Source: Lachnospiraceae bacterium
GTDB lineage: Bacteria > Bacillota > Clostridia > Lachnospirales > Lachnospiraceae
DNA: 64,000 bases
Assembly (NCBI GenBank): GCA_003862155.1
Contig: QOUV01000004.1
Location: forward strand, 1 to 64,000
Direction: 5' to 3'
Within the stretch, counting starts at the first letter, position 1, and each line of letters begins with the position of its first letter. The notes under the pieces were generated by a model that saw nothing but the letters and a program-made list of their open reading frames with translations, searched no databases and was not told the DNA's origin. The translations under genes were made by a program, and so were the position numbers. Shown piece by piece: positions 2,360 to 62,263 of this stretch.

Positions 2360-3282
2360 AAGATTCCTCCTTTTCCGATCTGTTCCAATAATGCTTTCAC
2401 CTCGTCCTTTGTAGCGAGGTAATCTGAAAATGCCGACGCACTTCCAGTGCATAACCCCATGTAAAATGCCTTCTCATAATCTCCACTTCCTATATATCCA
2501 TTCAGGAATCCGGCTACCATCGAGTCTCCGGCCCCGACTGAATTCTTAAGTCTGCCCTTCGGTGGCTTCGATGAAATAACGTCGCCGTCTGCCGATACCA
2601 GCAGCGCGCCCTCGCCCGCCATCGAAACGAGCACGTTCTCGGCGCCCATCTCCTGCATTTTCTTAGCGTAAGGTACGACCTCATCCACTGTATTTATCTC
2701 GACCCCGAATATCTCACCAAGCTCGTAATTATTCGGCTTCACGAGGAACGGGTGATACGGCAGCACATCCTTTAACAGGTCTCTCGTCGCATCGACAATG
2801 ATGTGAACTCCTCTGCCTTCCAGATATTTCATAATATCTCTGTACATCGTCTCCGGCATAACTGTCGGGATGCTTCCTGCGAGCACCAGATAGTCGTCTT
2901 TTTTAAGTTCATCGAACTTCTGGTAAAGCGCTTCGATATTCTTCTTCGATATAGCCGGCCCCATTCCATTGATCCCGGTCTCTTCGTCTTTGTCATCCCG
3001 AATTTTTACATTGATTCGGGAAATGCCCTCTTCTACCTCAATGAAATCCGTGTCGATTCCCTTCTCGCTCATCAGTCCCCTGATGGCCTTCCCTGTAAAT
3101 CCAGCCATAAATCCGACTGCTGTGGAATCTGTTCCGAGATTCTTAAGGACCATCGAAACGTTTAAGCCCTTGCCGCCCGGAAGCAGCAGCTCTTTCGATG
3201 TCCTGTTCACAAGTCCCAGCTTGAAATCGTCCACACTGATAATATAGTCAAGTGATGGATTGAACGTGACTGTCATTATCAT
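2356..3282 (-). CDS. fruK: 1-phosphofructokinase (PfkB family)
   Basis: Converts fructose 1-phosphate, the product of FruA, to fructose 1,6-bisphosphate with ATP. The 308-residue length is normal for the PfkB sugar kinase family. The N-terminal TVTFNPSLD is typical of FruK/LacC. The glycine-rich LLPGGKGLNVS sugar-binding signature lies at about 33-43. The C-terminal SVGAGDSMVAGF holds the catalytic Asp and anion hole. Start at 3282 follows AAGGAGG with an 11-base spacer; an ATG two codons later (3276) is also possible. The stop codon overlaps the fruA start by four bases, so the two are likely translationally coupled. Confidence 0.95.
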   Translation of the reverse strand: MIMTVTFNPSLDYIISVDDFKLGLVNRTSKELLLPGGKGLNVSMVLKNLGTDSTAVGFMAGFTGKAIRGLMSEKGIDTDFIEVEEGISRINVKIRDDKDEETGINGMGPAISKKNIEALYQKFDELKKDDYLVLAGSIPTVMPETMYRDIMKYLEGRGVHIIVDATRDLLKDVLPYHPFLVKPNNYELGEIFGVEINTVDEVVPYAKKMQEMGAENVLVSMAGEGALLVSADGDVISSKPPKGRLKNSVGAGDSMVAGFLNGYIGSGDYEKAFYMGLCTGSASAFSDYLATKDEVKALLEQIGKGGIL

Positions 3283-3330
3283 CTTGGTTCGTACCTCCTT
3301 TATTGTTATTTTTTATAAAAATTATCTTAG

Positions 3331-4077
3331 TTATGCTAATTCCTTGATATTTTTAAAGCCTTTGAATCCACGCTTCGTCAGCTTATCTGTAATGATCGTT
3401 GCTCTCTCAAAATCGCCAAACCCGATCGCCGAAACTGTGCCGAACTTCGTGTCATCCGCCAGCACATATCTGTCTTTACATGATAAAAATGCCTGGCGCT
3501 TCACCATCGCTTCCTTTAGCTCCGGCGTCGTGAAGCCTTCTTTTCTGGTGATTCCGTTCGCCCCGAAAAATCCCTTCGTGAAGTTATATTTATTCAGGGA
3601 ATCCAACGCCTCCTCGCCGACAATAGCTTCCGTGATCCGCTTGAACTCGCCGCCAAGGATATACACTTTAAATCCCTCAGACGCCAGCACCATCGCGTGA
3701 TTCACCGCATTCGTAACAAATGTCGCATCATGCTCTGTAATATACGAAAGCATCTGCTCGGTCGTCGTCCCGGCATCAATATATACAAAATCGCCGGGCT
3801 TTATTAGTGACGCCGCATAGCTTCCGATCGTCGCCTTCTCCTTCTGCTTCTGGCCTTTCCTCTTCGAAATCTCCTCATCCTTCGACGTCAGACTGCCGGT
3901 CTTCGAAATAGCTCCTCCTCTGACCCTCGTAATCCGTCCTTCGCTGTCCAGCTCATCCAAATCCCGCCTGACAGTGGATTCGCTGGCGCCGAGGAGCTTC
4001 ATGAGTTCCGCAACTGTGACAGACCCCTTCGAATCCACCGCAGAAATGATCTTCGCAAACCTTTCCTCTGTCAGCAT
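3331..4077 (-). CDS. fruR: DeoR-family regulator of the fructose operon
   Basis: Transcriptional regulator, 248 residues, with a DeoR-type helix-turn-helix at the N-terminus (SVTVAELMKLLGASESTVRR) and a sugar-phosphate-binding DeoRC domain (YIDAGTTTEQM, then FVTNAVN). Members beside fruK-fruA usually respond to fructose 1-phosphate. That role here is inferred from position. I prefer the ATG at 4077 because GGAGGG sits five bases upstream and MLTEERFAKI is the usual family N-terminus; an ATG at 4095 gives six more residues. It is first in the operon, 48 bases ahead of fruK, behind a good promoter at 4120-4148. Confidence 0.9.
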   Translation of the reverse strand: MLTEERFAKIISAVDSKGSVTVAELMKLLGASESTVRRDLDELDSEGRITRVRGGAISKTGSLTSKDEEISKRKGQKQKEKATIGSYAASLIKPGDFVYIDAGTTTEQMLSYITEHDATFVTNAVNHAMVLASEGFKVYILGGEFKRITEAIVGEEALDSLNKYNFTKGFFGANGITRKEGFTTPELKEAMVKRQAFLSCKDRYVLADDTKFGTVSAIGFGDFERATIITDKLTKRGFKGFKNIKELA

Positions 4078-4119
4078 CTTTCCCTCCAATTCCATTCATT
4101 TCCCTTCATGACGGTTCAA

Positions 4120-4148
4120 ATATTACCACCATATTCCGTACTTTTCAA
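4120..4148 (-). promoter_or_regulatory. Promoter of fruR-fruK-fruA
   Basis: On the minus strand TTGAAA (4143-4148) and TAATAT (4120-4125) are separated by exactly 17 bases, about 40 bases before the fruR start. This is a sigma-A type promoter by eye. A 15-bp palindrome lies further upstream at 4193-4207. Confidence 0.65.
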
Positions 4149-4192
4149 TCATTTCCGGTCAGAAATACTTCACAAAATTCCCCTCCCAAATT

Positions 4193-4207
4193 TGTGCAAC
4201 CTGCACA
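4193..4207. promoter_or_regulatory. Palindromic operator TGTGCA-N3-TGCACA upstream of fruR
   Basis: Perfect 6-3-6 inverted repeat TGTGCAACCTGCACA, centred about 87 bases upstream of the predicted fruR start point. The same half-sites with the same spacing recur at 18015-18029 before udp. Size and symmetry suit a Crp/Fnr dimer, and a Crp-like gene lies at 6241-6972. The pairing of protein and site is inference. Confidence 0.5.
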
Positions 4208-4211
4208 ACCT

Positions 4212-4240
4212 GGGACAGTAGGGACGGTTCTTTTTGTCCC
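4212..4240 (+). repeat. Dispersed 29-bp GGGACA...TGTCCC repeat copy
   Basis: Forward copy of the repeat, reading GGGACAGTAGGGACGG then TTCTTTTTGTCCC. It sits between the fruR promoter region and hairpin element A. Its two ends are inverted (GGGACA/TGTCCC). Confidence 0.85.
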
Positions 4241-4277
4241 ATTTTTTAAATTTTCTGATAATTGTGTTTTTTAGACC

Positions 4278-4477
4278 GAAGCAGCGCCGCGGATGGCCGG
4301 GGCTCGCTCCGTAGGATTTTTCTGTTCGCGTGCGCTCGTCTATGTGCCGCCCTCTGACCAATGTATGGTCTTATAATGGTTATGATTTTGGCGGGTGGTC
4401 ACCCGGGCGGCAACATCGCGCACGCTCACAACGAAAAATCCTAAGGTCGCGAGCCTGACCATCTGCGACGCTGCTTC
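4278..4477. repeat. Long hairpin element A (200 bp)
   Basis: The two ends are complementary over about 60 bases with scattered mismatches: the left arm starts GAAGCAGCGCCGCGGATGG and the right arm ends with its complement at GCTGCTTC. The inner left arm has TTTTTCTGTTCGCGTGCGC and GCCCTCTGACCA. The inner right arm has GTGGTCACCCGGGCGGC and CACAACGAAAAATCC. The same pair of non-identical arms occurs in elements C, D and E. No protein is encoded. It may be a structured RNA or a non-autonomous mobile element. Confidence 0.75.
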
Positions 4478-5190
4478 TGGGGTTGAAGTCATTTGTATCT
4501 GCAATAGATTATTTTTCAGGAAGTGCAATGGGACAAAGAATCTCCGCATGGGAGGGATATGGGGTAAGCACACTGAAAGTGAACTGGCGTGGACAAAAGT
4601 TTACTTCCGGCTCCGCGGAAGAGTGGTGGTTTCAATATAGGCTTACATGTAGTTGAAAATCATCAAATGTGCCTGCCTGCTGCACAGTATGGAAGAACTA
4701 ATTTCAATATTGGAATTTGCGGAGCTGGAAATATACAAGCTTCGTTCTCGCAGTTTCAGTATGGATATACATGAGACCAAAAATCTAAAAGGCAAAAAAG
4801 TCAGTCTCGATATAGATTCACGAAGCGTTGAAAATCTTAAACGCTCGAATGTACGCTCTCAATATAGCCTGTCGCGGAGCTGGAAATCTTAAATGCCTTG
4901 TAGAATATTCAGAAGCAATGGACATATATAAAAAGCTTGAAATGTACTGTTTAAGATTTTCGAGCATTATCCCACACATCTTGAGAATGCTTGAAAACTC
5001 TTTAATAATTTGACTTTCTCCCAGATCTATCTTGAGACTGGAAGAAATCCGTTGTATAAATTTCGCCCCGGAATGGGCTATACTGAAAACGTGGCCAACC
5101 AGATATCCAGGCAGAAAAAGGCAGCACTACTGATATGGGCACACTTTAATCAAAAAGCAGCGCCGCAGATACGGGCGCACTTTAACCAAA
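4478..5190. repeat. Degenerate 51-bp, 72-bp and 36-bp repeat region
   Basis: Gene-free. From about 4590 to 4900 there are degenerate repeats of roughly 51 bases (GGAGCTGGAAATCTTAAA, then CTCTCAATATAG). One copy of the 72-base repeat found at 9127 lies near 5052-5120 (TTGTATAAATTTCGCCCCG). A 36-base tandem repeat (AAAAAGCAGCGCCGCAGATA) runs from about 5115 into hairpin B. The order of units parallels the region 8620-9540. I found no open frame with a ribosome site that looks like a gene. Confidence 0.7.
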
Positions 5191-5300
5191 AAGCAGCACC
5201 GCAGATAGAGTCGGGCTCGCGACCTTAGGATTTTTCATAGAGCGCGCACGCGAACAGAAAAATCCTAAGGAGCTAGACCGACCATCCGCGGCGCTGCTTC
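5191..5300. repeat. Short hairpin element B (110 bp, core deleted)
   Basis: The outer stem is nearly the same as in elements A and D: AAGCAGCACCGCAGATAG at the left and CCGCGGCGCTGCTT at the right, plus CCTTAGGATTTTT against AAAAATCCTAAGG. The GC-rich inner part seen in A, C, D and E is missing, leaving only GAGCGCGCACGCGAACAG between the arms. It looks like an internally deleted copy in the same orientation as C and D. Confidence 0.7.
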
Positions 5301-5339
5301 GGACTATAAATACATAATGTGTCAGAAAATTCAAAAAAT

Positions 5340-5406
5340 GGGACAGAAAGAACCGTCCCCAGTGTCCCACAAAAAGTTGGACAGAAAGAACCGTCCCTAG
5401 TGTACC
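5340..5406 (-). repeat. Two tandem 29-bp repeat copies over the punA stop
   Basis: Two reverse-orientation copies at 5340-5368 and 5378-5406. The second is slightly degenerate and contains the punA stop codon (5397-5399), so the last residues of PunA are encoded by repeat sequence. Confidence 0.8.
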
Positions 5407-6221
5407 ACCTGGACGAAGTGCATGACGAGGCGCTCGAACTTGTCTTTGACGGCGTCGGCGGTGGCCTTGACTTCTTCGTGGTTTAGTGGCTGGTCGAGGA
5501 TGCCTGCTGCCATGTTGGTGATGCAGGAGACGCCGGCGACGCGGAGTCCCATGTGGTTGGCCGCGATTGCCTCGACTACTGTGCTCATGCCGGCAGCATC
5601 TGCGCCGAGGGTGCGGAGCATCTTAATCTCAGTCGGAGTCTCGTAGCTTGGTCCGGTGAGCTGGATATAGACGCCCTTTTGGAGGGTGATTCCGGTGGCG
5701 GCGGCCGAGTCCTCAAGCTGGCTGATAAGAGCCTTGTCATAAACTGAGGACATGTCCGGAAAACGAACGCCGAGTTCGTCCGGATTTTGGCCTATAAGCG
5801 GATTCTGAACAAAAACAGAGATGTGATCTCTTATGATCATCAAATCGCCCGGCTTGAAATCAGTATTGATACCGCCTGCTGCATTAGTCAGCAGGATGAT
5901 CTTTGCGCCGAGAAGGCCCATGATGCGGACAGGCATTACGACCTCGGACATTTTGTAGCCCTCGTAAAAGTGCACTCTTCCGCTCATGCATACGACTTTG
6001 CGTCCGGAAAGATTTCCGAAGATAAATTTTCCATCGTGACCGGAAACTGTCGATACCGGGAAGCCCTCGATATCTTTGTATGAAATCTCGCAGACCTTGT
6101 CGATCTTTTCGGAGAGGCCTCCCAGGCCGCTTCCGAGTGTGATGCCGATCTCCGGCACGAAATCAGTTACTTTTCTAATGCTTTTAAGCGCTTTTTGAAG
6201 CTGCTCGTAAATCTCTGACAT
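5397..6221 (-). CDS. punA: Purine-nucleoside phosphorylase, trimeric type
   Basis: Cytosolic enzyme that splits (deoxy)inosine and (deoxy)guanosine with phosphate into base and (deoxy)ribose 1-phosphate. The 274 residues match the trimeric (PunA/PNP) class. Visible motifs: GSGLGGL (phosphate loop), SGHDGKF, RVHFYEGY, TNAAGGIN, GPSYETPTEI and TNMAAG, which carries the purine-contacting Asn. The start is preceded by GGGAGG. It is the last gene of deoC-add-crp-punA, 19 bases after crp. Its stop codon lies inside a dispersed repeat, so the C-terminal VQVVH may have been altered by the repeat's arrival. Confidence 0.94.
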   Translation of the reverse strand: MSEIYEQLQKALKSIRKVTDFVPEIGITLGSGLGGLSEKIDKVCEISYKDIEGFPVSTVSGHDGKFIFGNLSGRKVVCMSGRVHFYEGYKMSEVVMPVRIMGLLGAKIILLTNAAGGINTDFKPGDLMIIRDHISVFVQNPLIGQNPDELGVRFPDMSSVYDKALISQLEDSAAATGITLQKGVYIQLTGPSYETPTEIKMLRTLGADAAGMSTVVEAIAANHMGLRVAGVSCITNMAAGILDQPLNHEEVKATADAVKDKFERLVMHFVQVVH

Positions 6222-6240
6222 AAAAACCTCCCTTTAAAAA

Positions 6241-6972
6241 TCAATCCGAAATGAACCGATTCAGATATTCTCTCATTTTTCTGTATTGCTGTTTGTTTAT
6301 TTTAAAAACGCTGCGGTTGTGATCAAAAAAACCTTCCTCGTCAAGCTGCTGGACCACACGGTTTACAGTGCGGACAGAAAGTCCCGAAAAATCAGCGATC
6401 TGCTGCCTTGTAAACGTCAGCCTGCAGTTCCCCTTCTGGTCTGCGCGGTCCTCGTACTCGAGCGCAAGGAGCATCAGAAGCGAATCTTTGCCGGGCAGGA
6501 ACCTGAAAACCCTGTCGCGCCTGGCCTCTCTCAGGAGATACTCGCAGGTATCCTTCGTCAGAAGTTTCAGGGCGTGCGAGTCCTTGTCCATCCACCTCTC
6601 GTAGGCCGAACGCTCCATCTTGAAAAAAATGCAGTCCGTTTCAGTCTGAAGAGTTGCCGCGTATAGGTCGTAACCAAGCAGGCTCTCCATCGTTCCAAAA
6701 GATTCGAACGCCGAATAAGTCGTGAATTTGTAATTTGTCCCGAGCACCCTGTGCTCAATGGCCGACACTTCTCCTTTTATCAGGAAATATACGCGGCTCG
6801 CAGGGTCATTTTCCCTGACAAAATGCGTGCCGCTCGGTATCTCCCTGATCTCCATCTCCTGAAAAATTCCAAGAGGGGCATTCTTGAAGAGCTCCTTTAG
6901 AACATCCTGGACTGACTCCGGCAATTGCTCCGAATAATCTAAAATTGAATTAACTGCTGCATGTTCGATCAT
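6241..6972 (-). CDS. Crp/Fnr-family transcriptional regulator
   Basis: 243-residue DNA-binding regulator. The N-terminal cyclic-nucleotide-binding-like beta barrel spans about 30-140 (IPSGTHFVRENDPASRVYFL is the roll). A long dimer helix follows, then a Crp-type winged helix with TRQQIADFSGLSVRTVNRVV at about 187-206. No cysteine cluster for an Fe-S centre is visible. The recognition helix SVRTVNR differs from E. coli CRP (SRETVGR), so the site preference should differ. The start overlaps the add stop as ATGA. Its place inside a nucleoside-catabolic operon suggests that it controls nucleoside genes; the TGTGCA-N3-TGCACA palindromes are candidate targets. Confidence 0.85.
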   Translation of the reverse strand: MIEHAAVNSILDYSEQLPESVQDVLKELFKNAPLGIFQEMEIREIPSGTHFVRENDPASRVYFLIKGEVSAIEHRVLGTNYKFTTYSAFESFGTMESLLGYDLYAATLQTETDCIFFKMERSAYERWMDKDSHALKLLTKDTCEYLLREARRDRVFRFLPGKDSLLMLLALEYEDRADQKGNCRLTFTRQQIADFSGLSVRTVNRVVQQLDEEGFFDHNRSVFKINKQQYRKMREYLNRFISD

Positions 6973-7949
6973 AAAAATGCTTCAAGTTCTTTTAATATAT
7001 CATTTTTCGTTGCTTCATCTGCAAATGAGGCGTTAACCGCATTTTTTTCAAGTGAGACGAGCTCAGCGTCAGTCAGGTTGGCAACGCCCTTCGCACTCTC
7101 GAGCTCATCCGTAAGCGTCGTATTTGAAACTGTCCTGTTGTCCGTATTTATCGTGGCCATGATTCCGGCATCGATAAATTCGCGGAGCGGGTAGATCCCG
7201 GTCACTGCCTTCGTTTGAAAATTGCTGGTCGGGCACATTTCAATTGGGATGCCCTTCTCTACAAACTCATTTTCGAGCTCTCTTATGCCCTGCATCCTGA
7301 CTCCGTGGCCAATACGCTTCGCTCCAAATGACAAAGCCGCTCTGATGCTTGATTCTCCGTCAGCCTCACCTGCGTGAATAATGTACGGCACATTTCTGGT
7401 GCGGGCAGCCTTGAAAAGCTCCTTGAATCCACTCGTCGGGTAGACTGCCTCAGCGCCTGCGAGGTCCATGCAGCAGACCCCCTTTCCAAGGTATTTTTCT
7501 ACGAGTGAAAGAGTCCCGAGATTTTTTTCAAGGTCAAAGTGCCTCATGGCGCAGAGGATGATGTTGCCCTTTACGCCATATTTTAAAGTACCGGCGCGAA
7601 GGCCTTCGATCGACGCCGCGACCGCATCGTCGGGAGTCATTGCATTTCCCGCTTCCGCAAGGCAGAACGGGTCAAAACGGATCTCCATGTAGCGGACATT
7701 TTCTGCATCTGCCTGTGCGAGGACATCCATTACACCGTCTCTTACAGCATCAGGCGTAGAGAGCGCCTTGATCTCGGCGTCAAATTTTTCCAGGTATTCG
7801 TTCAGGCTCGCGCACTCTATGGAAACTGAGAGATCTTTGAAATCCAGGCTTCGCCCGAGGTGACTGCTGATAAATTCCGGCGAAAGTGATCCGTCGAGAT
7901 GACAGTGCAGTTCAACTTTCGGCAGCGCTTTTATCTGTTCTCTGTCCAT
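6969..7949 (-). CDS. add: Adenosine deaminase
   Basis: Hydrolyses adenosine or deoxyadenosine to inosine or deoxyinosine plus ammonia, feeding PunA. The 326 residues form the metal-dependent amidohydrolase fold. Zinc ligands are seen in VELHCHLDGS (HxH, about 14-16) and IIHAGEADG; the catalytic Glu/His region follows in RIGHGVRM, and the metal Asp is in TINTDNRTVSNTTL. The start follows TAGGAGCG within the last bases of deoC. The four-base overlap with crp suggests coupled translation. Confidence 0.93.
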   Translation of the reverse strand: MDREQIKALPKVELHCHLDGSLSPEFISSHLGRSLDFKDLSVSIECASLNEYLEKFDAEIKALSTPDAVRDGVMDVLAQADAENVRYMEIRFDPFCLAEAGNAMTPDDAVAASIEGLRAGTLKYGVKGNIILCAMRHFDLEKNLGTLSLVEKYLGKGVCCMDLAGAEAVYPTSGFKELFKAARTRNVPYIIHAGEADGESSIRAALSFGAKRIGHGVRMQGIRELENEFVEKGIPIEMCPTSNFQTKAVTGIYPLREFIDAGIMATINTDNRTVSNTTLTDELESAKGVANLTDAELVSLEKNAVNASFADEATKNDILKELEAFL

Positions 7950-7952
7950 TAA

Positions 7953-8594
7953 TTACGCTCCTATAATTTTTAAAGTAGCCGAAGTTCCAAGTCTTGTAGC
8001 TCCAGCCTTTACCATAGATTCGGCCTCTTCGGCTGAGTGGATTCCGCCGCTGGCCTTAACACCGAGCCTGTCGCCAACTGTCTTTTTCATGATGGCAACA
8101 TCCTCTGCCTTGGCACCGCCTGTTGAAAATCCGGTCGAAGTCTTTACAAAATCAGCACCACCATTTTCAGAGAGCTCACAGGCCTTAACCTTCTCATCGT
8201 CTGTCAAAAGACAACACTCGATAATGACCTTTAAGATCTTGCCCGCGCAGGCATCGCGAACAGCCTTGATGTCATCAAGAACAACGTCGTATTTTTTATC
8301 CTTTAAAGCAGCGACATTAATAACCATGTCGATCTCGTCGGCGCCATCTTCTACAGCTGTCTTTGCCTCGAAGGCCTTAGACTTCGTGCTCATCTGTCCG
8401 AGAGGGAAGCCAACGACAGTAGTAGTGTGGATGCCTGTTCCCTTCAGGGCATCAGCGACATATTTTGTATAGTAAGAGTTGCAGCAGACAGACATGAAAT
8501 CATATTTCTTAGCCTCAGCGATGATCTGATCCATCTGAGCCTGAGTGGCATCTGCTTTTAAAAGTGTATGGTCAAATAACTTGTGATCTAACAT
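7953..8594 (-). CDS. deoC: Deoxyribose-phosphate aldolase
   Basis: Class I aldolase splitting 2-deoxyribose 5-phosphate into glyceraldehyde 3-phosphate and acetaldehyde, the final step of deoxynucleoside breakdown. 213 residues, a usual length. The Schiff-base Lys is in FVKTSTGF, and the second conserved Lys is in VKASGGIHS. The start has AAAAGGAG upstream. It is the first gene of this operon. Directly upstream (from about 8621) begins the 103-bp repeat array, which must either carry the promoter or separate the gene from it. I saw no convincing -35/-10 pair in the 45 bases between. Confidence 0.95.
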
Positions 8595-8638
8595 AATAAT
8601 CTCCTTTTATATAATTTATTGTTCTCAAAATCAGAGTT

Positions 8639-8964
8639 CGCGGCGCCGGAAATCTAAAAGCTCGATTCTCGCGTTTCAATACAGCCTCTTTGATTGCTCA
8701 AAAACTTACACGCCAGGATTATCGTTCTCAATATAGACTTACGCGGAGCCGGAAATCTACAAACACGATTCTCGCGTTTCAATACAGCCTCTTTTTTCGC
8801 CCAAAAACTTACACGCCAGGTTTATCGTTCTCAATATAGACTTACGCGGAGCCGGAAAACTAAAAGCTCGATTCTCGCGTTTCAATACAGCCTCTTTTTT
8901 CGCCCAAAAACTTACACGCCAGGTTTATCGTTCTCAATATAGACTTACGCGGAGCCGGAAAACT
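8639..8964. repeat. Three and a bit tandem 103-bp direct repeats
   Basis: Units begin at 8639, 8742, 8845 and 8948 (partial), spaced exactly 103 bases, starting CGCGGAGCCGGAAA. Each unit is itself two related halves of about 51 bases: one holds CTCGCGTTTCAATACAG, the other ATCGTTCTCAATATAGAC. Units 2 and 3 are nearly identical. Short frames run through but have no ribosome site. Similar 51-base units occur at 4590-4900 and, inverted, at 44090-44215. Confidence 0.85.
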
Positions 8965-9126
8965 TACATGACTTGTAGAAAATCGATGAGTAATGGTCTC
9001 ATTTTGAAACTCAAAAATACAGGCTTTAAGTTTTTCGACTCATTTTGCAAATATATTGAAAATGCCGAAAAGCACTTTAAGTTTTTGACTGCATTCCCTG
9101 TCAATATTGAAAATCCGGAAAGTCGA
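8965..9126. repeat. Linker with degenerate copies between two arrays
   Basis: Contains ACATGACTTGTAGAAAAT and two diverged copies of a segment with CTTTAAGTTTTT and ATTGAAAAT. The same sequence type follows the 51-base repeats at 4890-5000, showing that the two repeat regions share a common origin. Confidence 0.6.
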
Positions 9127-9558
9127 TTGTATAAATTTCGCCCCGCCAGGCTCTTTATTGAAAACCATCCGAACTACGGAGCCGGAAATCTGCAAGTATT
9201 GTATAAACTTCGCCCCGCCAGGCTCTCTATTGAAAACCATCCGAACTACGGAGCCGGAAATCTGCAAGTATTGTATAAACTTCGCCCCGCCAGGCTCTCT
9301 ATTGAAAACCATCCGAACCGCGGGGCCGGAAGTCTGCAAGGATTGTATAATCTTCGCCTCGCCAGGCTCTTTATTGAAAATCTTCCGAACTGCGGAGCCG
9401 GATGTCTGCAAGGTTTGTATAATCTTCGCCCCGCAAGGCTCTTTGTTGAAAATCATCCGAACTGCGGAGCCGGATGTCTGCAAGGATTGTATAATCTTCG
9501 CCCCGCATCGGCCTGTATTGATAAACGTCCGGACTGAGAAGCAGTCCATGGTCCCCTC
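9127..9558. repeat. Six tandem 72-bp direct repeats
   Basis: Units begin TTGTATAA at 9127, 9199, 9271, 9343, 9415 and 9487, spaced exactly 72 bases. The last diverges after about 9535. Each unit holds CTTCGCCCCGCCAGGCTC and, later, CGGAGCC, which can pair with GGCTC across a 25-base loop. The junction CGGAGCCGGAAATCTGCAAG matches the start of the 103-bp unit. As 72 is a multiple of three, several frames on both strands stay open, but none has coding character. Confidence 0.85.
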
Positions 9559-9888: not shown

Positions 9889-10827
9889 TTACTTAGACTT
9901 TATATACGGCTTTCCGTTTGCTGCCGGAACACGACCAGCACCTACGAACAGGATCAGTACGAGGATAGTCACGATGTACGGAATCATCGAGAGGATGTTA
10001 GGCGATACAGTCGAACCCATAGCTGAAAGAACGGACTTGAGGCCGTTGCAGAGACCGAACAGAAGGCATCCGAGGAATGCGCCCTGCGGAGTGAATTTAC
10101 CAAAAATTACGGCTGCGATAGCGATAAAGCCCTGTCCTACGATGACAGTCGGACGGAACTGGGAAACAGTAGCTAGAGTTACGAAAGCTCCGCCAAGTCC
10201 AGCTAAAAATCCTGAGAGAAGTACGCAGGCATATCTTACTTTAAATACATCGATTCCGAGAGTCTCGCAGGCCTCCGGATGCTCGCCGGCTGCGCGGAGT
10301 CTCATACCGAAGCTCGTCTTGTAGAATACGAACCAGATAACAGCAACGAGGATAAAGCTTACCCATACTGCGGAATATGTTCCGAAAACGTTGTATCCGA
10401 AAGAACCGGATTTGAAGACACCCTTGAAAAGCTTAGGGATCTTGTACTCTGTCGGAAGTGAAGGTGTATCAGATGAGTTATCAAACATAGCCTTGCAGAG
10501 GAAAAGCGCAAGTCCAGGTCCGATGAAGTTTATTGCTGTACCGGCAATAGTCTGGTCAGCTCCGCAGGTAACGCAGGCAAATGCGTGGACGAGTCCAAGT
10601 ACCATTCCTGCGCATCCGCCGAGCAGGAATCCGATCCAGCCATTGTGAGTGTAGTAAGCTCCGACCGCACCGACAAAGGCGCCGATCGTCATCATTCCTT
10701 CGATACCGATGTTTACAACACCGCTTTTCTCTGAGAAAACTGATCCGAGCGCTGCCAGAAGAAGCGGCGGGGTGGAGATCAGCATACCACTTAAAATAAG
10801 TCCGAGGACATTTACAAATGTATCCAT
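9889..10827 (-). CDS. nupQ: Nucleoside ABC transporter permease NupQ-like
   Basis: Second transmembrane subunit of the nucleoside importer, 312 residues, BPD_transp_2 family with about eight to nine hydrophobic segments. The family motif is GSVFSEKSGVVNIGIEGMM at about 28-46, and a coupling region is near RAAGEHPEACETLGI. The start follows AAAGGAGG, three bases after the nupP stop. It is the last gene of the operon; 50 bases further on lies hairpin element C. Partners are NupP, the ATPase NupO and the binding protein BmpA. Confidence 0.92.
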   Translation of the reverse strand: MDTFVNVLGLILSGMLISTPPLLLAALGSVFSEKSGVVNIGIEGMMTIGAFVGAVGAYYTHNGWIGFLLGGCAGMVLGLVHAFACVTCGADQTIAGTAINFIGPGLALFLCKAMFDNSSDTPSLPTEYKIPKLFKGVFKSGSFGYNVFGTYSAVWVSFILVAVIWFVFYKTSFGMRLRAAGEHPEACETLGIDVFKVRYACVLLSGFLAGLGGAFVTLATVSQFRPTVIVGQGFIAIAAVIFGKFTPQGAFLGCLLFGLCNGLKSVLSAMGSTVSPNILSMIPYIVTILVLILFVGAGRVPAANGKPYIKSK

Positions 10828-43882: not shown

Positions 43883-44076
43883 TTACGGACTATGGCGTGA
43901 TTTCCTTCTACAATCCGTAATTCCCGGCGCTCTTTTACGGACTGCAGTGTAGTCTTCATATACAGTCCGTAATCCTTGGCGTGATTTTACGGACTGCAGT
44001 GTAGTCTTCATATACAGTCCGTAATCCTTGGCGTGCTTTTACGGACTCAGAATATAGTCTCCGTTTACAATCGTAA
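43883..44076. repeat. Array of four 52-bp palindromic repeats
   Basis: Units start at 43883, 43935, 43987 and 44039, exactly 52 bases apart. Each is a 38-base palindromic block beginning TTACGGACT and ending (A)GTCCGTAA, followed by a 14-base link (TCCTTGGCGTGATT type). The same unit forms a longer array at 61758-62263. It lies upstream of the truncated dehydrogenase gene. Confidence 0.9.
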
Positions 44077-47917: not shown

Positions 47918-49267
47918 TTACCCCTTCAGAATGCAGTCAAATGTGATGATACCGTCCTTCCAGGATACATTTATAGTACCATTATACTGTTTCACCAGAC
48001 TCTCGGCAATAGAAAGCCCGATGCCATAGCCTCCTTTATCCACGTTGTGTGACTCGTCCGCTCTGTAGAATCTCTCGAAAAATTTGGAATAATCGACATT
48101 TTTTCCATTTGCGTATGAATTCGACACCTGAAGCCTGATGCCCTTGCCCTTCTGGAGGAGGACAACATCGATGGTTCCGTGATCATCACAGTATTTGATG
48201 GCATTGTCGATAAGAAGTGTCGCGAGCTGCCTGATCTGGCTTTCCACGGCTTTCATATAGATCCCGTCACCGATATTCTGATTCAGGGTCTCTCCTGCAT
48301 TCTCAGCTACCGGCAGGTAGCTCTTTACCGTATCCCTTATGGCTGCTGAGATATCTGTATCTATCCTGTCTCCAGTGTCTTCCTTCTCTTCGGCCCGGAC
48401 TATCGTCACAAGGTTCTGGATAAGTCCTGTCATCCTGTCGACCTGTCTCATGGTCGACTCAGTCCATTCGTCCTTTCCGCCGATCATCTCCTGAACCTGG
48501 GTGTTTGCTTTAATTACAGCCAGGGGCGTCTTCAGCTCATGGCTCGCGTTCGTGATGAACTGTTTCTGCTGCTCGACATTTTTTATCTCAGGAGCTATCG
48601 CCCTGTAGGAAAATGCTCTGAGTACCAGGAACGAGACGATTGATCCGAATCCCAGCAAAATAAGAGCCATATACAGGATCCTGTTCGTAAGTCCTATCTG
48701 CTGCGTGCAATCCACAAACACCACAAGGGTCCTGTGCTTCTGCTTCTCAACCTGGTAATAGTAATTTCCGACGCTGCCAAATTTGAAAGCATTGTCAGAC
48801 ACCATTTTGGCATACTGCTTCGCCTGCCCCATATCGATCGATGCTATCCTGTCGGCCTTCACCTGAATGAAATTGTCATTATTATCCAGAATAACAGAGA
48901 AATATCTCGTAGCGTACCACTGGTCTTTATTTGTGAGTACGTTTCTTCTGGTGCCAAACATCGTCTTAAGGAAATAGTTGATATTATCCTGAGGGGAATC
49001 GCTTACCACCGTGGAACTGTCATCATTTGAATTGCCAGAAGCAGTCGTGTTGTTCGCTTTCTGGTCATTTTTTATAACGGTCTTTACCGACGGGAGCGAA
49101 CCTCCATTGTCGACGATAGTCTGTGTGACCTCGTGCGCTTCCCGTCTCGATACAACGAGTGTCCCTACATAGATCAGGCCACCGACGACAACCATTACCG
49201 TGATAAAAGACAACATGGAGATGACAAGGAATTTGTTTTTAAGATTTCTGATGCTCTGTTCATTCAT
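47918..49267 (-). CDS. Sensor histidine kinase
   Basis: 449-residue membrane kinase. Two membrane helices (about 14-39 and 205-226) flank an external sensor region of about 165 residues. The HisKA domain has FITNASHELKTPLAVIKANT with the phospho-His. The catalytic domain has the N-box LLIDNAIKYCDD and the G-box GGYGIGLSIAESL. Start after TGGAGG. The signal sensed is unknown. It pairs with the regulator upstream, 26 bases away. Confidence 0.93.
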   Translation of the reverse strand: MNEQSIRNLKNKFLVISMLSFITVMVVVGGLIYVGTLVVSRREAHEVTQTIVDNGGSLPSVKTVIKNDQKANNTTASGNSNDDSSTVVSDSPQDNINYFLKTMFGTRRNVLTNKDQWYATRYFSVILDNNDNFIQVKADRIASIDMGQAKQYAKMVSDNAFKFGSVGNYYYQVEKQKHRTLVVFVDCTQQIGLTNRILYMALILLGFGSIVSFLVLRAFSYRAIAPEIKNVEQQKQFITNASHELKTPLAVIKANTQVQEMIGGKDEWTESTMRQVDRMTGLIQNLVTIVRAEEKEDTGDRIDTDISAAIRDTVKSYLPVAENAGETLNQNIGDGIYMKAVESQIRQLATLLIDNAIKYCDDHGTIDVVLLQKGKGIRLQVSNSYANGKNVDYSKFFERFYRADESHNVDKGGYGIGLSIAESLVKQYNGTINVSWKDGIITFDCILKG

Positions 49268-49293
49268 TTGATCACCTCCATGTGTTTAAAAAA

Positions 49294-49971
49294 TCAAGCT
49301 GCCTGCGAATTGATAAGTCTGAAGCTTCCGCCCTTCTCTCCTTCGATAGTGATTCCGGATGCTATAGCCGAGAGTTTTCTCTTCAAATATGAAATATAAA
49401 GCCAGACCGTATCCTCGTTTGCGTCCGGCTCACTGGCCCAGATCTTCTGCAGGATATCATCCGTCGAGATCCCGCCTTCCGAATGTGTCATAAGCATCTG
49501 CATCAGCTCGAACTCCCTGATCGAGAGCCTTACGGAGTTCTCACATGAAAGTTCCATATCCTCTGCTTTAAGCGAGACGTCTCCAAAGCTCATATCCTGC
49601 GGATTGTACTCTCTTCCCCTTCTGACAAGGGCCCTGACTCTGGCCAGGAGTTCTCTCATGTCAAAAGGCTTTGCCAGATAGTCATCTGCCCCTGCATCGA
49701 GTCCTGCCACCCTGTCATCGACTTCTGTCTTTGCGGTGAGAAGCAGTACCGGTGTCAGGATATTGTCCTCGCGCATCGATTTCAAGACCCCGAGTCCATC
49801 CACCTTCGGCATCATTATGTCGAGAATCACCGCATCAAAGCTGTCCTTTGAAAGGTAGTCAAGTGCCTCCTGTCCATCGTAGGCACTTGTCACATCATAT
49901 CCCTCGTGCTTTAAAATAGCCGACTCTGCCCTGTTTAAATCCCTTGTGTCTTCTGCCAGTAATAACTTCAT
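49294..49971 (-). CDS. OmpR-family response regulator
   Basis: 225 residues: receiver domain with LLLAEDTRDLNR, phospho-Asp in VILDIMMPKVDG (about 51), TAK and YLAKPFD; then a Trans_reg_C winged helix with SIREFELMQMLMTHSEG and TVWLYISYLKRKL. It overlaps the alarmone synthetase stop by four bases (ATGA), so the two are made together. Targets unknown. Confidence 0.94.
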   Translation of the reverse strand: MKLLLAEDTRDLNRAESAILKHEGYDVTSAYDGQEALDYLSKDSFDAVILDIMMPKVDGLGVLKSMREDNILTPVLLLTAKTEVDDRVAGLDAGADDYLAKPFDMRELLARVRALVRRGREYNPQDMSFGDVSLKAEDMELSCENSVRLSIREFELMQMLMTHSEGGISTDDILQKIWASEPDANEDTVWLYISYLKRKLSAIASGITIEGEKGGSFRLINSQAA

Positions 49972-50855
49972 TCTGATTCACTCCCTTTTATATCACTTGT
50001 CTCTTCAAAGATCAGATCCCTTATCGTCTGCATCGAAATATCTGTAGAAGCCAGCTCATCAGCGCATCTCTTGAGCTCCGATGTGACAAGCTCCTCATTC
50101 GTCCCGCTCAGATCATGCTTGTATTTGATCTGATGCTCGAGTGCCGCCCAGGTATCCTGCGAGATCGTCCTGAGCTGTATCTCTGCATAAAATTTCCCAT
50201 GCATCCGAAGTATCATGTGATAGCTTCTATAGCCGTTCGGCTTCGCATGCTTGTATTTGATCTGATGCTCGAGTGCCGCCCAGGTATCCTGCGAGATCGT
50301 CCTGAGCTGTATCTCTGCATAAAATTTCCCATGCATCCGAAGTATCATGTGATAGCTTCTATAGCCGTTCGGCTTCGCATGCTTGTATTTGATCTGATGC
50401 TCGAGTGCCGCCCAGGTATCCTGCGAGATCGTCCTGAGCTGTATCTCTGCATAAAATTTCCCATGCATCCGAAGTATCATGTGATAGCTTCTATAGCCGT
50501 TCGGCTTCGCATGCTTGATGTAGTCCTTCTCTTCTATCACCTCTGCTCCCGGGAGCGCCACCAGATGTTCCCGGAACTTGTACACGTCGTCTAAAAATGC
50601 GCAGACTACTCTGATACCAACCGCATCGTAGATCTTCGTAAGCGCCGACTCTGTCGTGACCGGCAGCCCCTTTCTGACGCACTTCTCTCTCATACTGTCC
50701 TCATCCTTAATCCTCGAAAGGCAGTGCTCGACAGGATCCATACCATTTTTTTCTTTGAGTTCGTTTCTAAGCGACTCGATATCATCTAAAAGTTCTTTTT
50801 GTATTTTTTCAAGCTCGGGCCTGTAAGGTCCGTAGATGCTCTCTGTTTCTTCCAT
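49968..50855 (-). CDS. Small alarmone synthetase with triplicated core segment
   Basis: GTP pyrophosphokinase of the single-domain RelP/RelQ type, making (p)ppGpp. Normal length would be about 207 residues; here it is 295 because a 44-residue block (HAKPNGYRSYHMILRMHGKF through EHQIKYK) is present three times in a row, residues 115-158, 159-202 and 203-246. The block holds part of the synthetase site (NGYRSYH and EIQLRT), so the fold must either use one copy or be disrupted. The DNA repeats are identical. Start after CAGGAG. It leads the operon with the two-component system. Confidence 0.85.
   Translation of the reverse strand: MEETESIYGPYRPELEKIQKELLDDIESLRNELKEKNGMDPVEHCLSRIKDEDSMREKCVRKGLPVTTESALTKIYDAVGIRVVCAFLDDVYKFREHLVALPGAEVIEEKDYIKHAKPNGYRSYHMILRMHGKFYAEIQLRTISQDTWAALEHQIKYKHAKPNGYRSYHMILRMHGKFYAEIQLRTISQDTWAALEHQIKYKHAKPNGYRSYHMILRMHGKFYAEIQLRTISQDTWAALEHQIKYKHDLSGTNEELVTSELKRCADELASTDISMQTIRDLIFEETSDIKGSESE
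50115..50510. repeat. Three identical tandem 132-bp repeats inside the synthetase gene
   Basis: Units 50115-50246, 50247-50378 and 50379-50510 read identically by eye. 132 is 44 codons, so the frame is kept. Lack of any difference points to recent expansion or an assembly artefact. Confidence 0.95.
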
Positions 50856-61757: not shown

Positions 61758-62263
61758 TTACGGACTCAGACCAATTTTCTCCTCTGAGTCCGTAATTCTG
61801 GCTGGGATTTTACGGACTAACACCAGCTTTTCCCTCTAAGTCCGTAATCATGACTGGGATTTTACGGACTCACACTAATTTTCTCCTCTAAGTCCGTAAT
61901 CATGACTGGAATTTTACGGACTCACACTAGTTTTCTCCTCTGAGTCCGTAATCTTGATAGCTTCTTTACGGACTCACGCCGAGTTCTCCATCTCAGTCCG
62001 TAACTCTGTTAGCTTCTTTACGGACTCGCACCAGCTTTTCCATCTGAGTCCGTAATCCATAACACAATTTTACGGACTCAGATCAAGTTTTCCTTTTCAG
62101 TCCGTAATTATATTAGCTTTCTTACGGACTCGCACCAGCTTTTCCATCTGAGTCCGTAATCCATAACACAATTTTACGGACTCTGATCAAGTTTTCCTTC
62201 TCAGTCTGTAATTATATTAGCTTCTTTACGGACTCGCACCAGCTTTTCCATCTGAGTCCGTAA
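61758..62263. repeat. Array of ten 52-bp palindromic repeats
   Basis: Units start TTACGGACT at 61758 and then every 52 bases to 62226. Each has a 38-base block (TTACGGACTCAGAC, a pyrimidine-rich centre such as CAGCTTTTCCATC, then TGAGTCCGTAA) and a 14-base link. The palindromic ends are nearly invariant; the centres and links fall into two or three alternating types. Same family as 43883-44076. There are no cas genes and no unrelated spacers. Confidence 0.93.

Follow-up and report, generated by a model that had tools for sequence, protein, structure and literature searches.

A perfect in-frame tandem repeat in the catalytic core of a RelP-type alarmone synthetase gene from Lachnospiraceae

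Introduction

How does a conserved enzyme gene come to carry a perfect repeat in the middle of its catalytic core, and what could such a repeat do there? The question is raised by a 64,000-nucleotide stretch of a Lachnospiraceae genome (assembly GCA_003862155.1, contig QOUV01000004.1, positions 1 to 64,000), referred to here as the window. A sequence-only reading of this stretch had pointed to a perfect in-frame triplication in an alarmone synthetase gene and had gone on to propose that changes in repeat number might switch the enzyme on and off. The nearest relatives of the source organism are uncultured Lachnospiraceae, mostly derived from the rumen.

The synthetase gene and its neighbours

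The minus-strand open reading frame at 49968-50855 (295 codons) is, by its domain and structure matches, a RelP-type small alarmone synthetase of the RelA/SpoT synthetase family with a repeated core, and it is predicted to synthesize (p)ppGpp. It matches the Pfam domain PF04607 (RelA_SpoT) with an E-value of 7e-52 and 174.8 bits against a cut-off of 27, and the closest PDB sequences are the RelP of Staphylococcus aureus (6ewz) and YwaC/RelP of Bacillus subtilis (6fgk); the assignment to the alarmone synthetases made from the letters is thus borne out. The domain match falls into three stretches, a first that is nearly complete (residues 47-160 against domain positions 1-111 of 113) and two others that represent the repeated second half. 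PF04607 is the sole Pfam domain above cut-off in the reading frame, and a hydrolase domain is absent. Matches to DUF5007 and SNRNP200_wHTH were weak, below their cut-offs, and were discarded. The protein resembles RelP (also SAS2 or YwaC) of S. aureus and B. subtilis in core sequence and in fold, but differs in that a 44-residue unit is present three times in the assembled sequence.

Which catalytic residues are repeated? In S. aureus RelP, Asp107 and Glu174 bind magnesium and Tyr151, in the G-loop, contacts GDP/GTP (PMC5794853). Asp107 aligns with D77, which occurs once and lies outside the repeated unit. Tyr151, of the G-loop sequence NGYRS, aligns with Y121 and is repeated as Y165 and Y209; Glu174 aligns with E137 and is repeated as E181 and E225. 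The unit thus holds the G-loop and the magnesium-binding Glu, although not the magnesium-binding Asp, and it lies in the catalytic core as had been stated. The G-loop Pro146 of the S. aureus enzyme, which has been linked to high RelP activity (PMC5794853), is replaced in the window protein by A116. All residues that are invariant among the aligned relatives are kept in the 295-residue form, and the gene carries no stop, frameshift or catalytic substitution.

Downstream on the same strand lie a RelR-like response regulator gene (49294-49971), whose start overlaps the synthetase stop in a 4-bp ATGA, and, 3' of it, a RelS-like sensor histidine kinase gene (47918-49267). The synthetase gene is, judged by this arrangement, the first gene of a relP-relR-relS operon, with co-transcription putative. 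In Streptococcus mutans, relP is in an operon with relRS (PMC4963387), and the order of synthetase, response regulator and histidine kinase genes is the same; the window locus differs in its host family, Lachnospiraceae, and in its ATGA overlap and internal repeat. The gene order and the 4-bp overlap between synthetase and regulator are also present in congeners (loci L006-L010), and numerous relatives at a greater distance, Streptococcus equinus (L045) among them, have the order as well. As an observation in its own right, this order (seen at 47918-50855 in the window and in relatives L006-L050) occurs widely across Lachnospiraceae and their neighbours, beyond the streptococci in which it was originally described.

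The array

The repeat occupies positions 50114-50517 of the minus strand and consists, as assembled, of three identical 132-bp units (100% identity) and an 8-bp remainder, CATGCTTG. In gene order, the first unit lies at 50386-50517 (residues ~114-157; the array starts at offset 338 of the reading frame), the second at 50254-50385 and the third at 50122-50253. The junction between units reads ATACAAGCATGCGAAG in gene sense. This is the perfect repeat that had been placed at 50115-50510, a span a few bases short, and it is read in frame within the 295-codon reading frame, as claimed. The array matches itself over 272 consecutive bases, and so long an uninterrupted match dismisses a chance origin. 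A second copy of the array was not found elsewhere in the genome, where the best match is one of 80% to 54 bases of a paralogue. An antisense reading frame at 50115-50594 (159 aa) was rejected as a gene, as it mirrors the repeat.

With two units removed, the gene is an ordinary relP of 207 codons. The normal length of about 207 residues that had been supposed agrees well with the relatives: a relP orthologue is present in 5 of 12 congeneric genomes, and all five encode proteins of 204-206 aa with one copy of the unit. At the DNA level, these orthologues share 78-81% identity with the collapsed window gene. One NGY motif and a protein of ordinary length (~205 aa) are likewise found in the more distant relatives that were examined. 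One relative (L054) has two NGY strings, but at just 198 residues it was rejected as a duplicated form.

Is the array found in other genomes of the family? A search for the unit-to-unit junction as a DNA pattern (encoding EHxxxYKxxKxNGY), which detects just this breakpoint and motif spacing and not other synthetase duplications, found it in the source genome, twice, and in none of the other 396 of 397 family genomes. A literature search for in-frame duplication in connection with small alarmone synthetases or ppGpp returned no report of a duplicated synthetase. A recent origin had been argued from the identity of the units. The distribution of the array supports recency, with one copy in the five congeneric orthologues and the junction in a single genome; the identity argument is weaker, as recombination can also keep copies identical.

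Probable origin at an 8-bp direct repeat

The array is probably a recent tandem duplication, which the assembly presents as a triplication, in an otherwise ordinary relP gene. What could have given rise to it? In the collapsed gene, the octamer CAAGCATG occurs at offsets 338 and 470, a spacing of 132 bp, and flanks the single unit; the end of the array coincides exactly with it. In the window, the first copy of this ancestral direct repeat lies at 50510-50517 (minus strand), where it encodes the Lys-His of IKHA, and the last at 50114-50121 (minus strand), where it encodes the Lys-His of YKHD. CAAGCATG is one of just two 8-mers that the collapsed gene contains twice. Among random 132-bp duplications within the window, a junction homology of at least 8 bp is seen in 0.55%.

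The simplest account of these sequence features would be slippage or misalignment at the octamer, followed by expansion. The strands would misalign at the 8-bp repeat during replication or repair, duplicating 132 bp in frame; the long perfect repeat could then expand through more slippage or recombination, and the same route would allow contraction. The two octamers share a reading frame, each encoding Lys-His, and the 132-bp step is in frame for this reason, with selection for a 44-codon step not required. With the frame kept, translational coupling to the overlapping response regulator gene would be kept as well. In two congeners, the same pair of Lys-His codons gives a repeat of 7-8 bp at the corresponding two places.

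Spontaneous duplications at short homologies are known from Salmonella (PMC3411829), where verification failed for junctions sharing 7 and 9 bp and succeeded for most of those sharing 11 bp or more. The window array resembles them in having its junction at a short direct repeat; they differ in that the Salmonella cases come from chemostat populations and are confirmed from 11 bp upward, whereas here the homology is 8 bp, in an assembled genome. By this analogy, the window junction would lie at the weak end of the confirmed homologies. A further precedent is the Escherichia coli rpoC allele K370_A396dup, an in-frame duplication of 84 bp that confers a phenotype (PMC5615307). There too, tens of codons are duplicated in frame inside a conserved gene, with a product that still functions, but the allele has two copies, was selected in the laboratory and was reconstructed and its phenotype shown. 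The size of the step also differs between the two cases, at 84 and 132 bp. Studies of tandem duplications in T4 lysozyme are reportedly another precedent, and are not used as evidence here.

Fold and activity of the predicted protein

Can a synthetase with 88 additional residues beside its active site still fold and work? Structure prediction, which had been suggested as a check across copy numbers, was run for the 295-residue form and for a one-copy congener, and both models have a confident core. The AlphaFold2 model of the long form, built with 41 relatives, has pLDDT values mostly of 90 or above over residues 11-130 and 220-280, and ~88 residues of low confidence between these two parts. 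Its core superimposes on S. aureus RelP (6ewz_B) with a Z score of 23.9 and an rmsd of 2.5, all 200 residues being aligned. The one-copy congener is predicted as a confident fold with the tip of a beta-hairpin at 131-133, and the extra residues of the long form are placed exactly at this tip, although the bulge follows the gap of the input alignment and so illustrates a possible arrangement rather than the one adopted. The hairpin differs in length among relatives, in which its two flanking motifs are separated by 10 to 26 residues.

In outline, a single synthetase core might be put together from the N-terminal part and the C-terminal helices plus one composite unit; the excess 88 residues (44 per extra copy) would bulge at the hairpin tip or between the last two helices. 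As the units are identical, the excess could branch off from the core anywhere within the unit; its most probable exit sites would be the hairpin tip and the linker that precedes the last helix. The sequence-only reading had implied a disruption of the catalytic core. The repeat does lie in the core, but the core itself may survive, with the excess forming an 88-residue excursion at the hairpin tip.

From the models, the 295-residue enzyme may be active, impaired or dead; our guess is that its activity or stability is reduced and that no new function has been gained. A more specific version of the tandem duplication explanation, and one compatible with it, is that the duplication inactivated a dispensable relP on its way to being lost, the loss being tolerated through Rel and a second small alarmone synthetase. 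Two near-complete congeners (G001 and G006) are without an orthologue, which makes relP dispensable in the genus, and the additional residues, close to the active site, may prevent folding or assembly of the tetramer. Yet the gene has kept its invariant residues and accumulated none of the lesions of a decaying gene (stop, frameshift or catalytic substitution), and a complete core is feasible according to the model. Given a real repeat, inactivity is a tentative possibility, rather less probable than not.

Copy number and the assembly

Is the number of copies, or the repeat itself, a product of the assembly? Many contig ends of the source genome share exactly 127 bases, and these overlaps identify a de Bruijn assembly of short reads with k=127. 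The set of 127-mers is identical for two, three and four copies of the unit, so at least two copies are supported and three are not established. The triplication that had been claimed is therefore exact as assembled sequence, and a duplication is the part of it that the assembly upholds.

A stronger form of this doubt is that most cells carry one copy, and that chimeric molecules formed at the 8-bp repeat created a loop in the assembly graph, which the assembler then output as additional copies. A survey for perfect tandem arrays in 1.27 Mb, about 60% of the genome, lends this some weight along with the type of assembly: all other arrays have match runs shorter than 127 save one, which consists of a 127-bp block of two spacers in the CRISPR array of contig 43. 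This block, the sole other sequence to loop at k=127, likewise appears in about three copies (3.25). The two cases hint that copy number three is a habit of the assembler. The other loop, however, sits in a CRISPR array, where duplication of a spacer block is plausible. Moreover, an 8-bp repeat alone cannot form a loop at k=127; the repeated form requires 118 127-mers that are absent from the one-copy sequence, so reads that carry the unit-to-unit junction must have existed. In assemblers of this kind, loop-specific k-mers need junction reads deep enough to survive error pruning. An artefact of this kind appears improbable, and a recent tandem duplication remains the preferred reading, at a copy number of two or more.

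Other repeats in the genome

The CRISPR array on contig 43 (C43, locus L154, ~2741-8100) has the repeat GATCCCGCTCGTAAGAGCGGGTGGATAGAAAT; one of its spacers occurs twice at 3015-3172, and the two-spacer 127-bp block lies at 7492-7904, where it is present 3.25 times without a difference. The period of this block equals the k of the assembly, which makes its copy number doubtful. In the window, hairpin-forming repeats of the form TTACGGACT...AGTCCGTAA occur between genes with a spacing of 52 bp, at 61758-62263 (~10 copies) and 43883-44047 (~4). Two adjoining arrays at 8615-8968 and 9125-9506 have periods of 103 bp and 72 bp and common segments similar to GGAGCCGGAA; they lie between genes at 7953-8594 and 9889-10827, with no clear conserved gene there.

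A repeat-number switch?

Does the array act as a contingency locus, in which frequent slippage or recombination in 44-codon steps toggles RelP between active and inactive states? Every step would be in frame, the unit contains the G-loop and the magnesium-binding Glu, and perfect direct repeats of 132 bp are generally expected to be unstable; however, the array is confined to one species of the genus, with the five congeneric orthologues at one copy, in-frame steps cannot give the frameshift on/off typical of phase-variable genes, and the octamer stems from conserved Lys-His codons rather than from a maintained repeat, all of which makes such a locus very unlikely. The proposal of an evolved slippage switch is not supported: the array is not conserved among relatives, and the Lys-His octamers explain the in-frame step.

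The suggestion that the stringent response is modulated in this way fares no better. Two further PF04607 genes are present in the genome, one a 793-residue frame typical of the long Rel enzymes and the other a second small alarmone synthetase; with these, and with relP missing from some near-complete congeners (G001 and G006), the stringent response would not depend on relP alone, and the two further genes would lessen the consequence of any switch. It is hardly to be expected that, in the source species, alarmone synthesis is tuned or switched by variation in unit number, one 44-residue step at a time.

Significance

The array at 50114-50517 offers a clean case of a familiar type of mutation in an equally familiar type of gene; the copy number is uncertain, and the repeat allele is most likely selectively neutral or transient. 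It also carries a caution: a perfect triplication in an active site, however striking, can originate at a short direct repeat, and the number of copies can reflect the estimate of an assembler. A true switch would matter much more; it would be a coding-repeat switch that controls the stringent response instead of a surface structure. Should the repeat be confirmed, its protein would provide a natural test of how large a load of duplicated core a compact enzyme fold tolerates while working.
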